Shown: positions 9,865-58,169, numbered from the stretch's first letter. The stretch is DNA of 64,000 bases from Lentisphaeria bacterium (GCA_024405215.1 JAKSPB010000009.1:1-64000), one strand, 5' to 3'. The notes: generated by a model from the sequence alone, not told the origin. Program-made: numbers and translations.

Positions 9865-10032
9865 TGCGTTCTCTCCTTTTATTTTTTCCAAGAGAAAAAA
9901 ACCGACGTTCTCTCTTTCGTGTCATCTACGCGGAGAACGTCCAGAATATAAGACTTTTTTCGGATTTTGCAAGAAGATTTTCGGCATTTTTCGGCATTTT
10001 TAGGAATTTCTAGTGATTATGCAGGATTATTC

Positions 10033-10079
10033 TTGACTTTGCACGAAAATCAACGTATTTTTTCGGAATTTTTCGTGCA
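10033..10079 (+). promoter_or_regulatory. Promoter overlapped by an inverted repeat, upstream of the RelB-like gene
   Basis: TTGACT (10033-10038) and TATTTT (10056-10061) are spaced by 17 bp. A 10-bp inverted repeat, TGCACGAAAA (10040-10049) and TTTTCGTGCA (10070-10079), straddles the -10. RelB/DinJ antitoxins usually repress their own promoter, so this is a likely autoregulatory operator. Confidence 0.6.
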
Positions 10080-10108
10080 GATTTCCCCAAAGTGCTATAT
10101 TGTGTAAC

Positions 10109-42262: not shown

Positions 42263-42308
42263 ACGGTCGAACCTTTCGCAAAAGGCTCGGTCGACAAGGA
42301 CGCCGTTC

Positions 42309-47329: not shown

Positions 47330-48559
47330 ATGGCAACTCCTTCCAAGTCCTACGACATCGTTGTCATCGGCGGCGGCATCGCCGGCATCGCGGCTGCCGT
47401 GCAGGCCTCCCGTTGCGGCTACAAGACCGCTCTGATTGAAAAGACCGTCCTGCTGGGCGGCCTGGCCACCAGCGGCCTCGTCTACATCTACCTGCCGCTC
47501 TGCGACGGGAACGGCACCCAAGTCTCCTACGGCCTCTGCGAGGAACTGATCAAGCTCTGCAACATCTACGGCCCCGGCGCCATTCCCGCAAATTGGCGCG
47601 AAGCCCGCAACGCCAAGGAGCCCGAGCGCTACCGCACCACCTTCTCCCCCGCTTCCTATATGCTGGCGCTGGACGAACTGGTCGTCAAGGAAAAGGTGGA
47701 CCTATGGCTGGACACCCTGGTCACCGACGCAAAACTCCGCCTGGGGAATATCAGCGCCATCACCGTGGAAAACGAGAGCGGAACCATCGAAATCAAGGCG
47801 AAGCGCTTCATTGACGCATCGGGAAGCGCCATTCTGGCACGCCGTCTGCAAATGCCCGTCATCCACACGGACAACTACCGTTCCATCTGGAACTACGAGT
47901 TCGATCACGGTAAAATGCAGATGCACTTCGGCCCCGTCGCCATCGGAAACCTCATGCCCGGCTACAGCGACGAAGTCCTCAAGAAAGCCGGCTACACCAA
48001 GAATTCCCTGATCAAGGCGACCATCCAGGGCATCAGCGGAAAGATCGTCACGGATTACATCCTGAAGACCCATGACTGCATCCGCGAATACTACCGCGAC
48101 TGCTACGAGAACAAGGGCGAAAGCCGCGAGGAGCATTTCCCTGTGAAGCTGCCGATCATGACACAACTCCGCCAGATCTGCGCCATCGACGCCGTCACCC
48201 CCATGACCGACGGCCAGGACTGGATGAACGTGACGGACTCCGTTGGACTAGTCGCCGACTGGCGCCGCCCGGGCTCCGTATGGGAAGTGCCCTACTCTTC
48301 CCTCTATGCCAAGACGGGTCCTGCGAATCTGCTCTTCGCCGGACGCTGCATGGGCGCCATCGGCGACGCCTGGGATGTAATGCGCGTCATCCCCTGCGCT
48401 GCCGTCACGGGACAGGCGGCCGGCCTTGCCGCTGCACTCTCCCTCCGCAAGAAAACCCAGCCCAACAAGCTGGAATACTCCGCGCTGGAAAAGGAACTCC
48501 GCACCCTGCAGATCCCCCTGCACTTCCCCGAACTCGGCCTGAAGAAGCCGAAAAAATAA
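47330..48559 (+). CDS. FAD-dependent oxidoreductase
   Basis: This 409-aa protein has the N-terminal dinucleotide fold VVIGGGIAGIAAAVQASRCG (residues 10-29), with the ALIEK ribose-binding strand and the LLGGLATSGLV segment typical of the FAD_oxidored group common in Planctomycetes and Lentisphaerae. The C-terminal FAD motif (FAGRCMGAIGDAWDVMRVIPC) is present. Substrate unknown, perhaps a sugar or plant compound. It starts 9 bp after queE with only a weak ribosome-binding site, so cotranscription with the que genes is likely although no role in queuosine is known. Confidence 0.85.
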   Translation: MATPSKSYDIVVIGGGIAGIAAAVQASRCGYKTALIEKTVLLGGLATSGLVYIYLPLCDGNGTQVSYGLCEELIKLCNIYGPGAIPANWREARNAKEPERYRTTFSPASYMLALDELVVKEKVDLWLDTLVTDAKLRLGNISAITVENESGTIEIKAKRFIDASGSAILARRLQMPVIHTDNYRSIWNYEFDHGKMQMHFGPVAIGNLMPGYSDEVLKKAGYTKNSLIKATIQGISGKIVTDYILKTHDCIREYYRDCYENKGESREEHFPVKLPIMTQLRQICAIDAVTPMTDGQDWMNVTDSVGLVADWRRPGSVWEVPYSSLYAKTGPANLLFAGRCMGAIGDAWDVMRVIPCAAVTGQAAGLAAALSLRKKTQPNKLEYSALEKELRTLQIPLHFPELGLKKPKK

Positions 48560-50000: not shown

Positions 50001-53000
50001 TTATGGAATGACCCATTCCGCCTCTTCGCAATGCCGCCAGTAAGCCGTCCCGGCAGGGACCATCGCTCCCGCAGGCAAGAGCAGGAAGACGCCATTTTCC
50101 ACCCGGTAGGCATCTGACGGGAGGCTATGTGCCGCCGTCGTCCCCAGCATCTGCCAGCCTGTTTCAACCGCGACCGGACGTGGATCCAGCCACCATCCGG
50201 AAACGCATCCCTCATAAGGTGTTTCCCGCCAGCCCCAGTAGCCCTTTCCCGGCTCCAGACAACCGGAAACACACTCCCGATGCCCCCAAAAGGAAAAATC
50301 CTTCGGGCTTTGCAGCTTCAACGCCTCAGGACGGATTCCCGCCAACGGAACGGCAAGGCAATTCCATCCAGCGGAAAGGGCCATAGCCACCCTCCTTTCC
50401 GGAGCCGCAACAAGAACCTTTGCGAATGACGCCTTCTGGTTTTCCCAAACCAGCCGCGCCGATTCCGCCTCCGGCGACGGTTTCAGAAGCATGTTCAGCT
50501 CCTCGACGTCTTCCGACGACATCGCCACCACATCCAGAAAGCCTTCGCCGTAGCGCACTAGACGTCCTTCCGTCTCCGCAACGCCGCCTTGCCATTCTTT
50601 CGGCATCCGCATCCGCCAGGCAAGAGGATACTCCTCGGCCTCCACCTTGACAGGCACCTCCATCTCCCTGCCGGGCAGAAACTGGCGCGGAAGAACGCAC
50701 GCCACAGGAGCACCAGAGCCCTCGACCGTTTCAGCGTCTTCCGGAATCGTCATTCCCTCAAGTGCAGACGCCAGCCACCGGAGAATGGCGGCAGAACCGG
50801 ACGTTCCCGCTTTAGCAATGGACATCTCCAGCGCATGGCACTCCAAATAATCAACCATCCACTGCTGAAGGGTCCCTGCCACTGGATAGCGTTCATCCCG
50901 CCGAATGGCCCTCGCAATCTCCGCTGCCTCCGCCACTTTCCCCGCCAGCGCGGCATCCGCGGGCGAGCCCCAGGCGACATATTCGTCCCCCTGCCGCACA
51001 TCCAACACCGCCTGGACAGGATGCGCCACCAGCCACCGCACCAGCGCAGACTGCTCCCGTTGAGGACGGCAAGTCTCCGCTTTTCCGAAAACGGCGTATT
51101 TCCACGGCGCCTCCAGCCCGCAGGCATCGCCCTCCGCCAACCGTCCCGGATCATCCGGAAAACCACGTTCCAAATCCACCCCGTGGAGATTGTCGTGCTT
51201 TCCAGCCACATATCCATCGGGATTCAGGACAGGCACAACCCACAGGGCGCACCTCTTCAGGAGTTCCGCCACTCGCCCTTCCCCCTCTTCCAAACTTGAA
51301 CGAACCTCCCGCAGGAACGTCAGCACCTGCTCCACAGCCGCCGTCTCGTTGCCATGGATTCCCGCCATCATCAGCAACTGCGGCACCTCCACGCCCTCCC
51401 CGGCCAGGGAAATCCGCACGCCCGTAATCTCCCGTCCCTCCTCGGTCATCCCCAAATAGGCGGGACGCACCTGCGGCCAATTCTCCGCGGAAAGCTCCTC
51501 CTGGAAATTCCGGATCTCCTCCAGGCCGAGCGCAGGAGGAACCACCGCCACATCCCGAATGGCCAGATACTCGAAATCCCGTGCCAGGAGATTTTCCAAT
51601 TCCAGTCCATTCACCAAGGCCGTGGCCTGATCGCCGTCAATGTTCTTCAACACCACGCCCGCCTGAGCCAACGCATCCAGCGTTCCGCTCTCCAGCGCCA
51701 GGTCAACTTCATAGAGACGTTCCGCAAATCCCGCCACCGTGGGTTCCTCCGGCTTTTCCGGCTTCTCGACATCGGGATTCTCCCTCCACTTCTTCCACGC
51801 GCCCTCCCGCAGAGAAAGCATCCACTCCGCCGCCCCGGCGGAAGGCTCGAACGCCTCCTGCCACCATGCCAGCCATGCCAGCAATTCCCCATTGGAGACG
51901 CATCCGTCCAAATCCGCATCCACGCTCCGCCAAGGATACTCCACCATTGGGCCGGAGCCATCCACGATACGTATCCGCACTGGCTTTCCGGCAATTTCCC
52001 TCAACGGCAAGGTCACACTACCCTCGGCATCCGTCCTGAAGGCAACTACGCCTCCCTCGTCCGTGCCGACGGCCACGGCACAATTCGCCACAGAAGAAGG
52101 CGCCTGTTCCGACAATCCCTTCACGGAAATTTCCAAGGCATCTTTCTGCTCTTCCAAAACCACCTCCAGAGGCACCTGCCCGCCTATGCGGCAAACCACA
52201 GTCGGATCTCCCAAAAGCTCCATCTCCCATGCATGAACAATGCCATCCTTGGAGGTATATTCGCCATTATCGCGAGAATGATGCTCGGTGGACTTGTAGT
52301 AATCATCCGCGTATGTATCACAAAAAGAGACAGCGGCATAGAGGGATTCCAAAGCATACGCCCCCTGCGAACTCAACCGGTTGTTTCCTTCACGGCTCCG
52401 TTGCAACGCGGCGGTAAAGGCATAAAGCTGCTCGATAGGCGGCTCCCAAAGCGTCTCGTCCGTCGACAGAATCGCCCCAGCCACACCCGCCGTGGCATTC
52501 TCGCTCTCGAAAAGCGCCTGGCCGAGGGAAGGAATGTCATACTCCACCATGTCCCGCGCGAAATCGTGCGCAAAATCCGCGTGATCCAGCTTTCCCGCAT
52601 CACAAACGGGGGCGATGACGAACGGCAACCGTCCCCCATTGTCTTGTCGCAGCGCCTGGTCGGCGGAATACCGCGTCGTCTTGAAGAAGACACACCCTCC
52701 GTGTCCCAAATAGAAAAGCGCGGCCGCGCCGTCATCGATATCAGCCGCCACCTCCTCTTGCGATTGGCTGTGCTGGTCCGTAATCATATCGTAGTACGTC
52801 GAGCTCTCCTGCAAGATGCCCGCGCCCTCGATCGCCTGCTGCTGCCGCAAAATGACCGTCCGGTCCTTCACCCCCCAATAAGGCCAGCTAGAAGACGCCT
52901 CGTTGGAGCCGAGGTAGATTCCGCGCTTCGTCCAACCAGAATCCGTGAATTTCCCTTCTTCAAATTTCACCGTCCGCGCCAGCGCCCGTGCAGCGAACTC

Positions 53001-54197
53001 CCTGTTGCGCACCGGAATTCGTCCAAGAAAAAGATCCGGGTAACTCAAGTCTCCCTCGCCGGCGAGCAGCGCATAGGGAGTATCGGAGGCAATCTTCTGA
53101 TATGCGGTCGCGCCATGCACCGACAGCTTTCCCGTGGCGTGCTGGAAAGGAGGAATCGCCCCATAATCGCCCACCAGCATCAAATGGGTGAGACCATGTT
53201 CTTCATATTGACTGCGCACCCACGCCAGGACACCGTCACGTCCTTCCCCCGTCTCGGACGGATATCTGCCCAGCAGGACCTCCCAGCCCATTCGTTTCTT
53301 CCAGCCGACATACTCCTGCACGGCAACATCGTCGCACCACTCCTCCGGCATCACCATCGCCAGAACGCCGACGGAAGAAACAACCGACACACTCCGGAAA
53401 GAAGGACCATTGATAAAAAAGGACCGCTGGATGGCGGCAAAATCACCATTGCCGTCCAATTCCGCAGATGACGCGCCCACCGTGCGCAAGGAAACCACGG
53501 CACGCGTCAAGACCCGGATATTCCCCCGGGCATCGTCATACAGGAAACGCGACACCGTGACGCCATCCCCCTGGATGCCGCGAAGCTGGTAGCCTGACGC
53601 AACCCGAACGGAGGCATCCGGAAAGACCACGCCCGCTCCATAGACTTCCGGCGAAGGAAGCACGGGAGCAGGAACCTCGCCGCGGAACGTCATCGCCTGC
53701 CCAGGCGCCGGACGGCACGCATCTATCGTCGCATACTCAGCATTCCGCAAAGTGACCTTGACGGCACAGCCAGGCGCAGTGCCGTATTCCATTCGATAGA
53801 GCGGCAGCGCAGGCATCCCCGACACCTTGAGCGTGGACGCGCCATCCGCCTCAATCCTCTGCCAGACGCGCCCTTCCTCGTCCGCAACATCCTCGATGGA
53901 ATAACGAGGCAGGATGAACTCCACCAGCGTCTCCTCCGGCGTACAGGAAACCACGCGGAAAGGAGCCGTCCCTTCTCCGGACCATCTCCCCCCCCCCGGC
54001 TCAGCTTCTTCCTTTTCCTCAACCGCCTGTCCGGAATCGGACGCGAGCTCCATGCCCTCCTTACCGTTCCTTCTCGCCAATTCATCGGAGAGCGCGCCTT
54101 CCCCCTTGATTCCGCACAGCCGCCATCCCGCTATCACGGCAACCAGCAGCAATAGCAGAATGACCAGCCTCTTTTTTGGGAAAAAGCGCATTCTCAT
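50001..54197 (-). CDS. Giant envelope protease: gingipain-type C25 domain + EF-hand + degenerate M14 domain
   Basis: This 1398-aa protein starts with a membrane/signal segment (about 9-28) and a charged, probably pro-, region. The C25 gingipain-like cysteine protease domain spans about 275-650 with H499 (YLGHGG) and C532 (APVCDAG) as the catalytic pair. A dockerin/EF-hand-like loop DADLDGCVSNGE lies near 760. A zinc-carboxypeptidase (M14)-like domain follows at about 910-1150: H948 and E951 are present, but the third zinc ligand (DLH) is Arg at R1068 and the substrate motif NRNFP is ERGFP, so this domain is probably inactive. Gingipains cleave host proteins after Arg or Lys. The mnmA gene follows downstream 15 bp after its stop. 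Confidence 0.82.
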   Translation of the reverse strand: MRMRFFPKKRLVILLLLLVAVIAGWRLCGIKGEGALSDELARRNGKEGMELASDSGQAVEEKEEAEPGGGRWSGEGTAPFRVVSCTPEETLVEFILPRYSIEDVADEEGRVWQRIEADGASTLKVSGMPALPLYRMEYGTAPGCAVKVTLRNAEYATIDACRPAPGQAMTFRGEVPAPVLPSPEVYGAGVVFPDASVRVASGYQLRGIQGDGVTVSRFLYDDARGNIRVLTRAVVSLRTVGASSAELDGNGDFAAIQRSFFINGPSFRSVSVVSSVGVLAMVMPEEWCDDVAVQEYVGWKKRMGWEVLLGRYPSETGEGRDGVLAWVRSQYEEHGLTHLMLVGDYGAIPPFQHATGKLSVHGATAYQKIASDTPYALLAGEGDLSYPDLFLGRIPVRNREFAARALARTVKFEEGKFTDSGWTKRGIYLGSNEASSSWPYWGVKDRTVILRQQQAIEGAGILQESSTYYDMITDQHSQSQEEVAADIDDGAAALFYLGHGGCVFFKTTRYSADQALRQDNGGRLPFVIAPVCDAGKLDHADFAHDFARDMVEYDIPSLGQALFESENATAGVAGAILSTDETLWEPPIEQLYAFTAALQRSREGNNRLSSQGAYALESLYAAVSFCDTYADDYYKSTEHHSRDNGEYTSKDGIVHAWEMELLGDPTVVCRIGGQVPLEVVLEEQKDALEISVKGLSEQAPSSVANCAVAVGTDEGGVVAFRTDAEGSVTLPLREIAGKPVRIRIVDGSGPMVEYPWRSVDADLDGCVSNGELLAWLAWWQEAFEPSAGAAEWMLSLREGAWKKWRENPDVEKPEKPEEPTVAGFAERLYEVDLALESGTLDALAQAGVVLKNIDGDQATALVNGLELENLLARDFEYLAIRDVAVVPPALGLEEIRNFQEELSAENWPQVRPAYLGMTEEGREITGVRISLAGEGVEVPQLLMMAGIHGNETAAVEQVLTFLREVRSSLEEGEGRVAELLKRCALWVVPVLNPDGYVAGKHDNLHGVDLERGFPDDPGRLAEGDACGLEAPWKYAVFGKAETCRPQREQSALVRWLVAHPVQAVLDVRQGDEYVAWGSPADAALAGKVAEAAEIARAIRRDERYPVAGTLQQWMVDYLECHALEMSIAKAGTSGSAAILRWLASALEGMTIPEDAETVEGSGAPVACVLPRQFLPGREMEVPVKVEAEEYPLAWRMRMPKEWQGGVAETEGRLVRYGEGFLDVVAMSSEDVEELNMLLKPSPEAESARLVWENQKASFAKVLVAAPERRVAMALSAGWNCLAVPLAGIRPEALKLQSPKDFSFWGHRECVSGCLEPGKGYWGWRETPYEGCVSGWWLDPRPVAVETGWQMLGTTAAHSLPSDAYRVENGVFLLLPAGAMVPAGTAYWRHCEEAEWVIP

Positions 54198-54210: not shown

Positions 54211-54254
54211 AAACGAAAACAGGCGGGTCCCTGAAAAAGAGGAGCCCGCCTGTT
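54211..54254 (-). terminator. Intrinsic terminator of the PpiD-like gene
   Basis: On the minus strand AACAGGCGGG pairs perfectly with CCCGCCTGTT (54218-54227 and 54245-54254), followed by a T-rich tail. Confidence 0.85.
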
Positions 54255-54275
54255 TGTTACGCTACAAAGAATTCA

Positions 54276-54453
54276 CTGAACCTTTTTGCAAAGTCCATTT
54301 GAAGGCACTTTCCAAGGCTTTCAGAGCCGGTTCGCTTTCAAGTCCACTACGACGGCGACGTATCCCGCCGCAGCCTCGCGAAGGCGGAAGAACTTGGAGC
54401 AAAATGGCCCGAAAGAACGAAAAGCGGCCCAAGCGACTTTTGCAAGGAAACGT
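54276..54453 (-). repeat. Structured 3'-UTR element, copy A
   Basis: This element lies between the PpiD-like stop codon and its terminator. Read on the minus strand it matches the plus strand of copy B (57751-57911): it shares TTGCAAA-GTCGCTT, CTTTTCG-TCTTTCGGG, CTCCAAGT-CTTC, TCGTAGTGGACT and a CCTTC-ATGGACTTT ending. Its ends are again inverted relative to each other. It has an insertion of about 20 bp relative to copy B. No coding capacity is evident. Confidence 0.7.
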
Positions 54454-56952
54454 TTATTCCTCTTCCGCTTCGCCAGTGTAGGGGGTGCCAGCGCGAAGCT
54501 GCGTATTGGACTGCTCAAGAAGCGTCTTTTCAAAGTTCATCATCTCTTCGTTCTGCTTCATCATCAGCAGCCGATCCTTCAGTTGCTGACGCTCCTCGGC
54601 GTTGGAATCCAGCTTTTCAGGAACCACGCGGTTGGCCACGTAGAGCAGCTGGTAGCCGACGGGGATCACCAGCGGCATACCCTGTCCAAGGGTAAAGACC
54701 TGCTGTGCGCGCTGGGGTTCCAGGAAGGCACCGGGGGCTTTGATGGCCGCCAGGGCGTCCACGAACTGAACGGCGTTAAGCTGCTTGCTCTGCTGCAGGG
54801 ACTTCACGATTTCGGTCTGATTCTGGACATCGCTGACGCTGAAAGCGGGCAGTTCAGTGAACTTCAGGTCGCCGGCCGCGGCATCCAGGTCGCCGCCATT
54901 GGTCTGCAGGGCCTCGGCGATGCGCTTCATTTCCGCCTGGGCGCGAGCCTGGGCAGCGGCCATCTCCACATTCTCGCGATAGGCCTGCTGCAACACCGGG
55001 GCGTATTCCTTGGCAGCAGGATCAGCCAGATGGGCGGCTTCAATGCCGGTCAGGCAGATCACGTAAGAAGCATCCAGACCGATGACGGCGGAGGAGATGG
55101 GACTGGTCATGTTGGCCATGAAGACTGCACGCAGGACTTCGCTGTTGGCAGCCGTGGCATGGGAGACATCCAGGCCATTGACGAGCTCGAACTTGGCCTC
55201 GGCGATCTCGCCGGCCAGCTTCTCCATCAGGGCGACGGCAGTGGTTTTCTCCTCTTCGGACTGCGCCTTGGCATTGGCGTCCTGAGCCTTCCACCAAGCC
55301 TCGCCGAACTTCTCGGCAAACCGCGCCGCGGCCTCGTCGGCCAGCTTGCGGGCCTTGGCGGCCTTCAGGTCGCTGGCCAGACCTTCCTTCACATCGTCCA
55401 GGACCTTCTTGTCAACCTCGAACTCGGACTTGCGTGCCTCATAGGCAGCGGCGACCTCCTCGGCAGTGGTGTCGGCGACCTGGGAGAGATAGCCTTCGGG
55501 AGCGAAGGTGACCTGGCCAAAGGAACGCTGCTCGGGAACATAGAAGCGACCGATGAGCTGCTGATCCAGCGTGGCGCCCAGGCGATAGAGTTCCTGCTGC
55601 TTGCTGGCGGAATCCATGTTCTTGTTGTCACGGATGGCCTCCACGGCGGCCATGTAGGCATCATACGGATTCTTGACCTTCTCCTGGAAGAAAACCAGGG
55701 CCTTCTCGTTGCTGATGGTCTCGCTGATGATGTTGCGCAGGGCATCCATGCCATTCCCCTTCAGCTCAGGCAGAGAGTCGGGCATCTGCGTCGGCTGCTT
55801 GAAGGTGATCATCGCCACTGCGGTGAAACCGTCGCCGATGATCATGGGAGTCACATCGCCCACGGACGCCGTGTTGCGGATGACATCCGCCAGGCGCTCC
55901 TGGTTGCCAAGGCCTTCGATCATGTTGTCCAAGGCAATCACGCCCGTGGCGGAAACCGCGGCGCCGGCCTTCTCGGCTGCAGCACGATAACGGGCGATGC
56001 GAGCCTCGGTGGCCTCGTCCTGAACCAAGGTCTTGAATTCATTGGAGAGCGCCTGGGCCTTCTTGCGAGCCTCGGCACGGACACGCTCGTCCGTCAGGGC
56101 AGCCCGGATGGCCTCGGTGGCCTGCTCCAGGGTCTGGCCCTTATAGACGGTGTTCTTGTTCGCCTCGTAGCGCTGGGAAATCTCCGCAGCGGTGGGAACC
56201 GCGGAAGCGCCCATGGCCGCGCGGACGGCGTCATAGCGGAAGACGGCCGCCAGGGCGTTCTTGGACTCTGGCAGGACGATCTCGGCCTTGCGCTCGGCAT
56301 AGAACTTCTGGATCTCCTCCTCGGTGGGCTGGGCGTCCTTCGTGGAAATGCCCACGGTAGCGCACTTCAGGGTGTACTGGGCCATGGCGTCATCCACCTC
56401 GGCATCGGAAACCACCGCGCGCTCCTTCACCTTGTCCAGGACACGCTCAATGATGATGTCCTCCTTCACGACTTCGTCAAATTCGGTGGGAACCAGCTGC
56501 AGATTGCGCTTGACGATGTCGATCATGTTATCAAAGGCCACCTTGTTGAAATGGCCGTTCTCGTCCTTCAAGACCTCGATCGTGGAGATGCGGGCCTTGA
56601 TTTCGTCGTCGGTGACCTGGTCAAGGTCGTTCTGCTTGGCATAGTGCAGAAGGCGCATGCGGTTGAGGGCTTCGTTGAAAAGCGCCTGCTTCTGGCTGGA
56701 GAAATCCGCGCCAAAGAGGGAAGGATTGGAAATCCACAGGCCAAGCGTGGTCTTGTTCATCTCCTTCTGGACCAGATCGATGGACAACGTCTTGCCGTAC
56801 ATCTTGCCAAAATCCTTCAGACCGCCCCGGCCGCCCTGCATGCTGCCGGGAGTGACGAAGATGACGAAAGTGGCGATGATGATGATCAGAAGCACCAGGT
56901 AGGTCAGCTTCGCGTGCTTCTCGAAGTAACGGTTAAAGTGGGAAATGAACAT
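54454..56952 (-). CDS. PpiD/SurA-like periplasmic peptidyl-prolyl isomerase chaperone
   Basis: This 832-aa protein has an N-terminal membrane anchor (about residues 16-34) and a SurA_N-type helical chaperone domain (about 60-210). A long alpha-helical periplasmic part includes a parvulin-like segment around residues 200-330. Such PpiD relatives sit at the Sec translocon exit and help fold outer-membrane and periplasmic proteins. It follows rpe by 42 bp on the minus strand, so they may be cotranscribed. Its stop abuts repeat element A. Confidence 0.85.
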   Translation of the reverse strand: MFISHFNRYFEKHAKLTYLVLLIIIIATFVIFVTPGSMQGGRGGLKDFGKMYGKTLSIDLVQKEMNKTTLGLWISNPSLFGADFSSQKQALFNEALNRMRLLHYAKQNDLDQVTDDEIKARISTIEVLKDENGHFNKVAFDNMIDIVKRNLQLVPTEFDEVVKEDIIIERVLDKVKERAVVSDAEVDDAMAQYTLKCATVGISTKDAQPTEEEIQKFYAERKAEIVLPESKNALAAVFRYDAVRAAMGASAVPTAAEISQRYEANKNTVYKGQTLEQATEAIRAALTDERVRAEARKKAQALSNEFKTLVQDEATEARIARYRAAAEKAGAAVSATGVIALDNMIEGLGNQERLADVIRNTASVGDVTPMIIGDGFTAVAMITFKQPTQMPDSLPELKGNGMDALRNIISETISNEKALVFFQEKVKNPYDAYMAAVEAIRDNKNMDSASKQQELYRLGATLDQQLIGRFYVPEQRSFGQVTFAPEGYLSQVADTTAEEVAAAYEARKSEFEVDKKVLDDVKEGLASDLKAAKARKLADEAAARFAEKFGEAWWKAQDANAKAQSEEEKTTAVALMEKLAGEIAEAKFELVNGLDVSHATAANSEVLRAVFMANMTSPISSAVIGLDASYVICLTGIEAAHLADPAAKEYAPVLQQAYRENVEMAAAQARAQAEMKRIAEALQTNGGDLDAAAGDLKFTELPAFSVSDVQNQTEIVKSLQQSKQLNAVQFVDALAAIKAPGAFLEPQRAQQVFTLGQGMPLVIPVGYQLLYVANRVVPEKLDSNAEERQQLKDRLLMMKQNEEMMNFEKTLLEQSNTQLRAGTPYTGEAEEE

Positions 56953-56994
56953 TTGTGTCTCTTGTATTCAGGGAGGACTCTTATCGGAAAATTG

Positions 56995-57690
56995 CTATCG
57001 CAGGACGTCGATGGCCGCCTTGTAGTCGCCATCCTTGGCATGGAAGACGCTGGATCCGGCCACCAGGACATCCGCGCCGGACTGCCGGACCAACTCCGCG
57101 GAGGCCTTGGCGATGCCGCCGTCGACTTCCAGGCGGATGGGCTTGCCCGTGGCCTGGATGGCCGCATGGAGCTTCTGGATCTTGGGAAGCTGCTCGCCGT
57201 GGAAGGACTGGCCGCCAAACCCCGGCTCGACCGTCATCACCAGCACCATCTCCACCTTCTCCAGGTAGGGCAGGACCATCTCCAACGGAGTGGCAGGACG
57301 AAGCGAAATGCCTGCCGTGCACCCCAGCGCGTGGATGGAGTCAATCACCTTGTCCGCATCCTGCTCCACTTCCACATGGAAGGTAATATGATCCGCGCCG
57401 GCATCCCGGAAACGAGGAGCATATTTCAGGGGATCCGTGATCATCAGATGCACGTCAAAAAGCATGCCGGAGGCAGGACGGATGGCCTTGACCAGATCCG
57501 CGCCAAAGGAGATGTTCGGCACGAAATGGCCGTCCATGATGTCCAGATGGAGGACCTCGGCACCCGCCTTTTCCACAGCCGCCACCTCTTCCGCCAGATG
57601 GTCATAGCGGGCCGCCAGAAGAGAGGGAGCCACCAGGACGCGATCCCGGGGCCACTGCGTAAACACATGCTTGCTGGAAATGGATGCCAT
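56995..57690 (-). CDS. rpe: Ribulose-phosphate 3-epimerase
   Basis: This 231-aa TIM-barrel enzyme interconverts ribulose-5-phosphate and xylulose-5-phosphate. Family motifs are VAPSLLAARYDHL, HLDIMDGHFVPNISFG near 48-63, FDVHLMI, MTVEPGFGGQSF and EVDGGI, with the catalytic Asp residues D50 and D193-equivalent present. Length is standard. It is followed by the PpiD-like gene. Confidence 0.96.
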   Translation of the reverse strand: MASISSKHVFTQWPRDRVLVAPSLLAARYDHLAEEVAAVEKAGAEVLHLDIMDGHFVPNISFGADLVKAIRPASGMLFDVHLMITDPLKYAPRFRDAGADHITFHVEVEQDADKVIDSIHALGCTAGISLRPATPLEMVLPYLEKVEMVLVMTVEPGFGGQSFHGEQLPKIQKLHAAIQATGKPIRLEVDGGIAKASAELVRQSGADVLVAGSSVFHAKDGDYKAAIDVLR

Positions 57691-57705
57691 AATCTACTCT
57701 AAAAT

Positions 57706-57738
57706 CAAAAAAGACGGCCACGGATATGCGTGACCGTC
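57706..57738 (-). terminator. Intrinsic terminator between rpmB and rpe
   Basis: On the minus strand GACGGTCACG pairs with CGTGGCCGTC (57729-57738 with 57713-57722, one mismatch), followed by TTTTTT. It ends the rpmB transcript just upstream of rpe. Confidence 0.85.
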
Positions 57739-57750
57739 CTCATACACAGG

Positions 57751-57911
57751 TGAGCCTCTTGCAAAGGTCGCTTCGGTCACTTTTCGCTCTTTCGGGTCAT
57801 TTTACTCCAAGTACTTCGCATCGTAGTGGACTACGCCTTGACGCGCTCGAAGCAAACTGCCTTCCGAAATCCCTGAAAAGCGCCTTCGGATGGACCTTTA
57901 CGAAAGGCTCA
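57751..57911 (+). repeat. Structured 3'-UTR element, copy B, with inverted ends
   Basis: The 161-bp element begins TGAGCCTCTTGCAAAGGTC, and its reverse end reads TGAGCCTTTCGTAAAGGTC, a 19-bp terminal inverted repeat with 3 mismatches. The centre contains a CGTAGT/ACTACG hairpin. It lies between the rpmB stop codon and the terminator at 57706. A related copy A is at 54276-54453. Confidence 0.8.
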
Positions 57912-57941
57912 GGTAAATCAGGGGAGAGCCCCCGGATTTCC

Positions 57942-58169
57942 TTAAGCCTTGACAACCTTGCCGGAACGCAGGCAGGCGGTGCAGACGGTCAAGCGCTTGA
58001 CGCCGCCGTTGACCACAGCGCGGACGCTCTTCAGGTTCGGCTTGAACTCGCGCTTGGTGTTCTTCACCACGTGCATACCAATACCGCCCTTCTTCTTGGC
58101 CAGACCACGACGGGTGATGTGACCACCAGAAGCCTTGTGCTTGCCGCAAATCTCGCAAATCGCGCCCAT
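57942..58169 (-). CDS. rpmB: 50S ribosomal protein L28
   Basis: This 75-aa protein is a typical L28 with SGGHITRRGLAKKKGG and LKSVRAVVNGGVKRLTVCTAC. It carries a zinc-ribbon (C5/C8 and C63/C66), the C+ form. A GAGG site precedes the ATG. It lies just after tRNA-Lys on the same strand, and repeat element B follows its stop. Confidence 0.97.
   Translation of the reverse strand: MGAICEICGKHKASGGHITRRGLAKKKGGIGMHVVKNTKREFKPNLKSVRAVVNGGVKRLTVCTACLRSGKVVKA

Follow-up and report, generated by a model that had tools for sequence, protein, structure and literature searches.

The window analysed here, a stretch of 64,000 nucleotides, is contig C82 of a 2.98-Mb, 82-contig metagenome-assembled genome (MAG) from an uncultured, gut-type Lentisphaeria bacterium. 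The closest named genome found, Lentisphaeria bacterium UBA1724, belongs to the same genus (Rpe identity 87%). Three genes on the minus strand frame the locus: rpmB (57942–58169, bL28-like, an open reading frame (ORF) named by reading its sequence and by synteny), the rpe ORF (56995–57690), and a ppiD-like ORF (54454–56952) supported by synteny, whose SurA/PpiD type is the naming of the initial annotation. Element copy B (57752–57910, plus strand), of a 158-nt type with the ends GAGCCTCTTGCAAAGGTC and GACCTTTACGAAAGGCTC, occupies the spacer between the stop codon of rpmB, its upstream host gene, and the intrinsic terminator of rpmB (57704–57741, minus strand, identified by sequence comparison), with rpe downstream. 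Copy A (54278–54452, minus strand), of a longer type with an extra internal hairpin, directly follows the stop codon of its upstream host gene, ppiD, and an inverted repeat resembling an intrinsic terminator lies beyond it (54217–54255, minus strand). The initial annotation had placed both copies between a stop codon and an intrinsic terminator; a stop codon on one side and a hairpin with a T-run on the other are seen for ppiD and A as well as for rpmB and B, with boundaries shifted by 1–3 nt. On the same strand, positions 50001–54197 hold a 1398-aa ORF, which on visual inspection appears to combine a gingipain-like cysteine peptidase with a zinc-carboxypeptidase-like region.

A and B had been described as inverted homologues. 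This is confirmed by their longest ungapped block, 60 nt with 87% complementarity (54387–54446 against 57758–57817), and by the model scores within the window, which reach 51 bits for A (E 4e-13) and 106.5 bits for B (E 3e-30). The latter score belongs to model R2 and to the hairpin core of B (57777–57884, minus strand), a conserved stretch of ~107 nt common to several genera. The 19-bp inverted ends reported for B pair at 16 of the 19 positions on direct reading, and B folds as a near-complete hairpin. On either side of B stands the tetranucleotide AGGT (57748–57751 on the left, 57911–57914 on the right), read from the sequence and scored as a target-site duplication. The ends of A are eroded and its target duplication is gone; the extra internal hairpin, CCGCCTTCGCGAGGCTGCGGCGG, was located in it at 54365–54387 (minus strand) by a hairpin sequence search. 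A weak match of the core model at 10012–10104 (plus strand; 13.8 bits, E 0.15) is AT-rich and probably due to chance.

These two copies belong to a large set. Further copies, sought by genome search, number at least 75 in the 2.98-Mb MAG. With A or B as the query at least 41–42 matches each were retrieved, while two models, one of sequence alone and one of the structured core, gave at least 75 matches apiece, a few of them being one copy read on both strands. An independent tally of the fetched stretches counted at least 86 places including fragments, 61 of them near-complete. Shorter, internally deleted copies are also present. An assembly artefact, which the initial annotation had named as a possible source of the similarity, is excluded, as is chance: at least 75 copies are present, they have diverged, and the flanking gene order is conserved.

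The element is an imperfect palindrome of ~158 nt, or of ~188 nt with the extra internal hairpin, and contains no ORF. Aligned copies share the ends GAG-NNNN-TTGCAAAAGTC ... GACTTTTGCAA-NNNN-CTC, with three recurrent end variants (CCTT, CCAC and GNAA) that are largely complementary within one copy. The terminal inverted repeats measure 18 bp, as aligned in 24 + 12 copies. The consensus folds into a single hairpin across the whole element (−85 kcal/mol), the mismatches of which are conserved. Copies diverge from their subfamily consensus by 14% on average. In the long subfamily (~188 nt), to which A belongs, a further hairpin of ~30 nt sits close to the apex. It occurs in 10 copies in the genome, those examined lying within element copies, and 59 relatives yielded one match, with 2 mismatches. 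The idea of a REP hairpin nested within the long subfamily therefore finds no support. Three copies (L027, L029 and L064) carry other sequences at the extra-hairpin site, which are also able to form a hairpin.

The initial annotation recognised no described family, and this stands: Rfam 15 contains no family matching the element, neither at the gathering score nor at E values up to 5. No exact match was found among 84,980 species genomes. A plasmid or phage origin was considered and dropped, with no match in either sequence collection.

The shortened, end-like hairpin noted at 42265–42290 is real as well. It is a solo end-hairpin, GAACCTTTCGCAAAAGGCTC (42269–42288, plus strand), a derivative without core that lies 6 nt past a stop codon and is flanked by GGTC on both sides (42265–42268 and 42289–42292), a target-site duplication read from the sequence. 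Two further 20-nt solos have exact duplications, AACT/AACT (L144) and GACC/GACC (L146). Most simply, these 20-nt hairpins are core-deleted derivatives of the element, since TTTTGCAAAA is a direct repeat present at both element ends. An origin by insertion of the core into a 20-bp palindrome already in place, duplicating 12 bp, was rejected; TTTT ends fit it, but AATT and ACTT ends do not.

The bases just outside the ends of the 61 near-complete copies were compared at lengths from 2 to 10, and the duplication signal is confined to length 4. There the base match is 0.652, against 0.26–0.29 at the other lengths, and when the pairing at length 4 was shuffled 1000 times, the match never exceeded 0.373. 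Exact 4-bp direct repeats flank 20 of the 61 copies, while shuffled pairings produced a mean of 0.6 and a maximum of 5. The duplications vary in sequence, and there are neither TA termini nor a TA target duplication as in TA-type miniature inverted-repeat transposable elements (MITEs). Two-thirds of the copies are without an exact duplication, a point against a transposon reading that we attribute to their age, given the mean divergence from the subfamily consensus. The second line of evidence comes from two genomes of the same genus (G001 and G002). Both have the genes in the order rpmB-rpe-ppiD, and their rpmB-rpe spacer, the one locus examined closely for an element-free ortholog, keeps the terminator without B. 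Taken together, the 4-bp duplications and the spacers without B indicate that A and B very probably arose by independent insertion of a non-autonomous, MITE-type DNA transposon with the inverted ends GAG-NNNN-TTGCAAAAGTC and a 4-bp target-site duplication. Of the two alternatives first offered for this repeat, a small-RNA or a miniature inverted-repeat family, the latter is thus upheld by dispersed copies, inverted ends, the duplication and element-free spacers.

Placement relative to genes was judged from gene calls of a home-made finder trained on the source genome rather than a published one. All 61 copies fall outside predicted genes; 45 are in tandem spacers, 7 in convergent and 4 in divergent ones, and 5 at contig edges. 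Within the tandem spacers, the upstream stop codon is at most 15 nt from the element in 21 of 45 cases, compared with 12.7 expected under uniform placement (p = 0.0003), and the next start is that close in 7 of 45. Many copies therefore sit in tight operon junctions, between the stop codon and the next ribosome-binding site. At the 25 gene ends facing an element from a distance of −7 to 15 nt, the stop codon overlaps the element in nine cases, with element bases completing the stop. Eight of these use the first one or two element bases (T|GA or TA|G), and one uses an internal TAG. Recurrence between a stop codon and a terminator, which the initial annotation would have taken as support for a functional RNA, is thus general only in its first half: a simple scan found a terminator beyond the element in just 6 of the 45 tandem spacers, so A and B are not typical in this respect.

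We envisage that a DDE-type transposase encoded elsewhere would cut at the element ends and join them to the target with a 4-bp stagger. Such a stagger implies an enzyme of the DDE type. Insertions within genes or over promoters would then be lost, whereas those at gene ends would survive because of selection together with the immediate regeneration of the stop codon, the first element bases (GA following T, or G following TA) rebuilding it at once. These insertions would also leave the downstream ribosome-binding site intact. Beside selection, there may be a target preference for gene ends. Copies that are transcribed would form long hairpins within 3′ UTRs and between the genes of operons.

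Palindromes at gene ends also bring to mind REP/BIME-like sequences mobilised by a RAYT tyrosine transposase. GTAG/CGTC REPs are 20–40 bp long, tagged at one end, linked to a tyrosine transposase and without a 4-bp duplication (PMC3733652). Like them, our element is palindromic and intergenic, lies at gene 3′ ends and sometimes supplies the stop codon, as GTAG REPs do (PMC3733652). Unlike them, it measures 158 nt, has two-ended inverted repeats with a clear 4-bp target duplication, and is missing the one-end GTAG tag, both ends being of the GAG...CTC form. We thus regard a REP/BIME-like origin as highly improbable.

The structure of the element raises a different question, namely whether the hairpin, whatever its mobile origin, has been selected for a role as RNA, at the 3′ ends of mRNAs or at operon junctions, where it would act as a stabiliser, an RNase III site or a decoy. 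Three observations speak for this: the excess of copies beside stop codons, compensatory changes across genera in 21 of the 30 core pairs, and the pattern of double changes. Among 59 aligned copies, counting changes private to a copy and leaving out the variable end, 57 double changes preserve Watson-Crick pairing, although some of these events are common to related copies; the corresponding number was 13.7 ± 4.3 (maximum 20.5) when partners were slid by 1–12 positions. Paired positions therefore co-vary strongly, as the initial annotation had asked of a functional RNA, yet covariation does not separate RNA-level from DNA-level causes, and arm-to-arm conversion within an inverted repeat yields identical covariation. 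Arm complementarity is either maintained or copied between arms. Other measures point away from RNA. Both orientations are used equally in the 45 tandem spacers (21 along transcription, 24 against), and paired sites change nearly as fast as unpaired ones (0.132 versus 0.168). When the strand read from the upstream gene is considered, transitions in one arm that preserve pairing through G-U only slightly outnumber those that break it (156 versus 128). Furthermore, no copy was found in G001, and the rpmB-rpe spacer is free of the element in both same-genus genomes. RNA-level selection on the hairpin is only weakly indicated, and we consider a functional RNA unlikely. The small-RNA or 3′-UTR half of the original proposal is accordingly not demonstrated, given the use of both orientations, the near-even transitions and the mostly missing terminator.

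Among relatives, the sequence model detected no copy in the same-genus genomes and weak matches in three genomes of the same family. A core model was built from copies of the source genome and of relatives. Of 29 genomes from the family, 10 yielded cores with this model, and 19 genomes from other families of the order yielded none; a 289-genome sample of the phylum added one further genome, of the class. One same-genus genome, G002, has two copies with another end type. At least eight end types, unrelated to one another and with differing target duplications, accompany the relatives of the core, and complete elements are 152–159 nt long. Type T1 (GAG..GCAAAAGTC) duplicates any 4 bp. Five types are bounded by CTAG: T2 (TGTGGTGTC.TTAAATYCG), T3 (TAGTCTGTAACATC), T4 ([TA]GCTCTGTTTCAATTG), T5 (TACTTAATTGATTTAATTCG) and T7 (TGTCTCGTCCGATTAATTCG). 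T6 (GGAGATGTAACAAAATAAC) and T8 (GGAACTGTGCAAAAATTA) are apparently bounded by TTA/TAA. For the type pairs compared, cores score 2.2–10.7 z units over shuffles, the lowest values being those of T1 against T3–T5, which are weak when taken pairwise, and the 24-nt ends are mostly shuffle-like. In a related MAG (G011), four contigs (L110, L113, L115 and L117) end inside identical type-8 copies; recent transposition, with copies breaking assemblies, would give such ends.

The source genome itself also carries elements of T2 (L317, L320) and T3 (L318, L319, L322), bounded by CTAG where intact. One element near 47815–47920 of L323 (G000:C23:47400–48400) has the left half of T2 and the right half of T1, joined at the hairpin apex. 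It follows from this chimera that element halves can be exchanged.

A similar core beneath unrelated ends is the unusual feature of this element set. Here the core is better conserved than the ends, whereas a simple MITE derived by deletion shows the opposite, and this counts against the MITE reading. Either the ends change along with transposases as these diverge, with the core retained for a different reason, or co-resident families swap ends. The ~107-nt core would be the descendant of one ancestor that was given new ends several times, because related genera hold similar cores with unrelated ends. Tentatively, the persistent unit could be this asymmetric core, its ends swapped repeatedly (with N4, CTAG or TWA duplications) at a constant length of 152–159 nt, and moved by several transposases or through recognition of the core; we see this as a possibility on the lesser side of even.

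Mobility could alternatively be directed by structure: a protein would recognise the core hairpin in its DNA form, and complementarity would be all that the ends need, hence their differences and covariation. The conserved core, the unrelated ends and the constant length of complete elements agree with this, as does the covariation of ends within the source family (for example GAGCCTTTT/AAAAGGCTC, GAGCCACTT/AAGTGGCTC and GATGTAATT/AATTACATC). However, the outer bases are fixed within a type (GAG; TGTGGTGTC; GCTCTGTTTCAATTG), something an end-reading transposase would require, and the duplications are type-specific (N4, CTAG, TWA), pointing to several transposases. Structure-directed movement therefore appears quite improbable to us. 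For a MITE-type element moved by its ends, a mobiliser was looked for by end patterns in the source genome and seven related genomes; these fragmented drafts yielded neither an autonomous partner nor a transposase, which counts against the MITE reading. The exact TTGCAAAAGTC sites examined in the source genome were only element copies, fragments, solo ends or sites within genes, and searching with the end patterns of three further types likewise gave no full-length transposon.

Many bacteria have 3′ UTRs and operon junctions shaped by small palindromic repeats, and how these spread is usually unclear. Here, an uncultured lineage offers a multi-copy set that bears target duplications, with sister families that have a common core and differing ends. 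This contrast makes it directly testable what MITE mobility needs, whether ends, core or structure. Annotating the element also explains why unknown hairpins recur, and contigs break, in MAGs of Lentisphaeria. In the literature consulted, mostly non-subscription, palindromes of similar size and placement are described (PMC2229807, PMC3733652), but no such family in Lentisphaeria and none defined by a common core with different ends.

Among known systems, the Rickettsia palindromic elements (105–146 bp) form long stem-loops and are known for insertions inside protein-coding genes (PMC2229807). Our element shares with them the palindrome with a long stem-loop, the terminal inverted repeats and the restriction to a lineage, whereas its copies avoid genes. 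The Yersinia palindromic sequences YPAL, or RU-2, are ~168 bp long, with duplications of 3 to 26 bp and internal inverted repeats (PMC2229807). By description, they resemble the element in length, palindromic form, target duplications and the lack of TA termini; the element differs in its constant 4-bp duplication and terminal inverted repeats. Correia-NEMIS, RUP and ERIC are bacterial MITEs or small mobile sequences (reviewed in PMC2229807). Like these, the element is shorter than 200 bp, non-coding, intergenic and multi-copy, and has inverted ends, a target duplication and a long hairpin. Unlike these, it duplicates any 4-bp sequence rather than TA, and its ends differ by type while the core stays similar.
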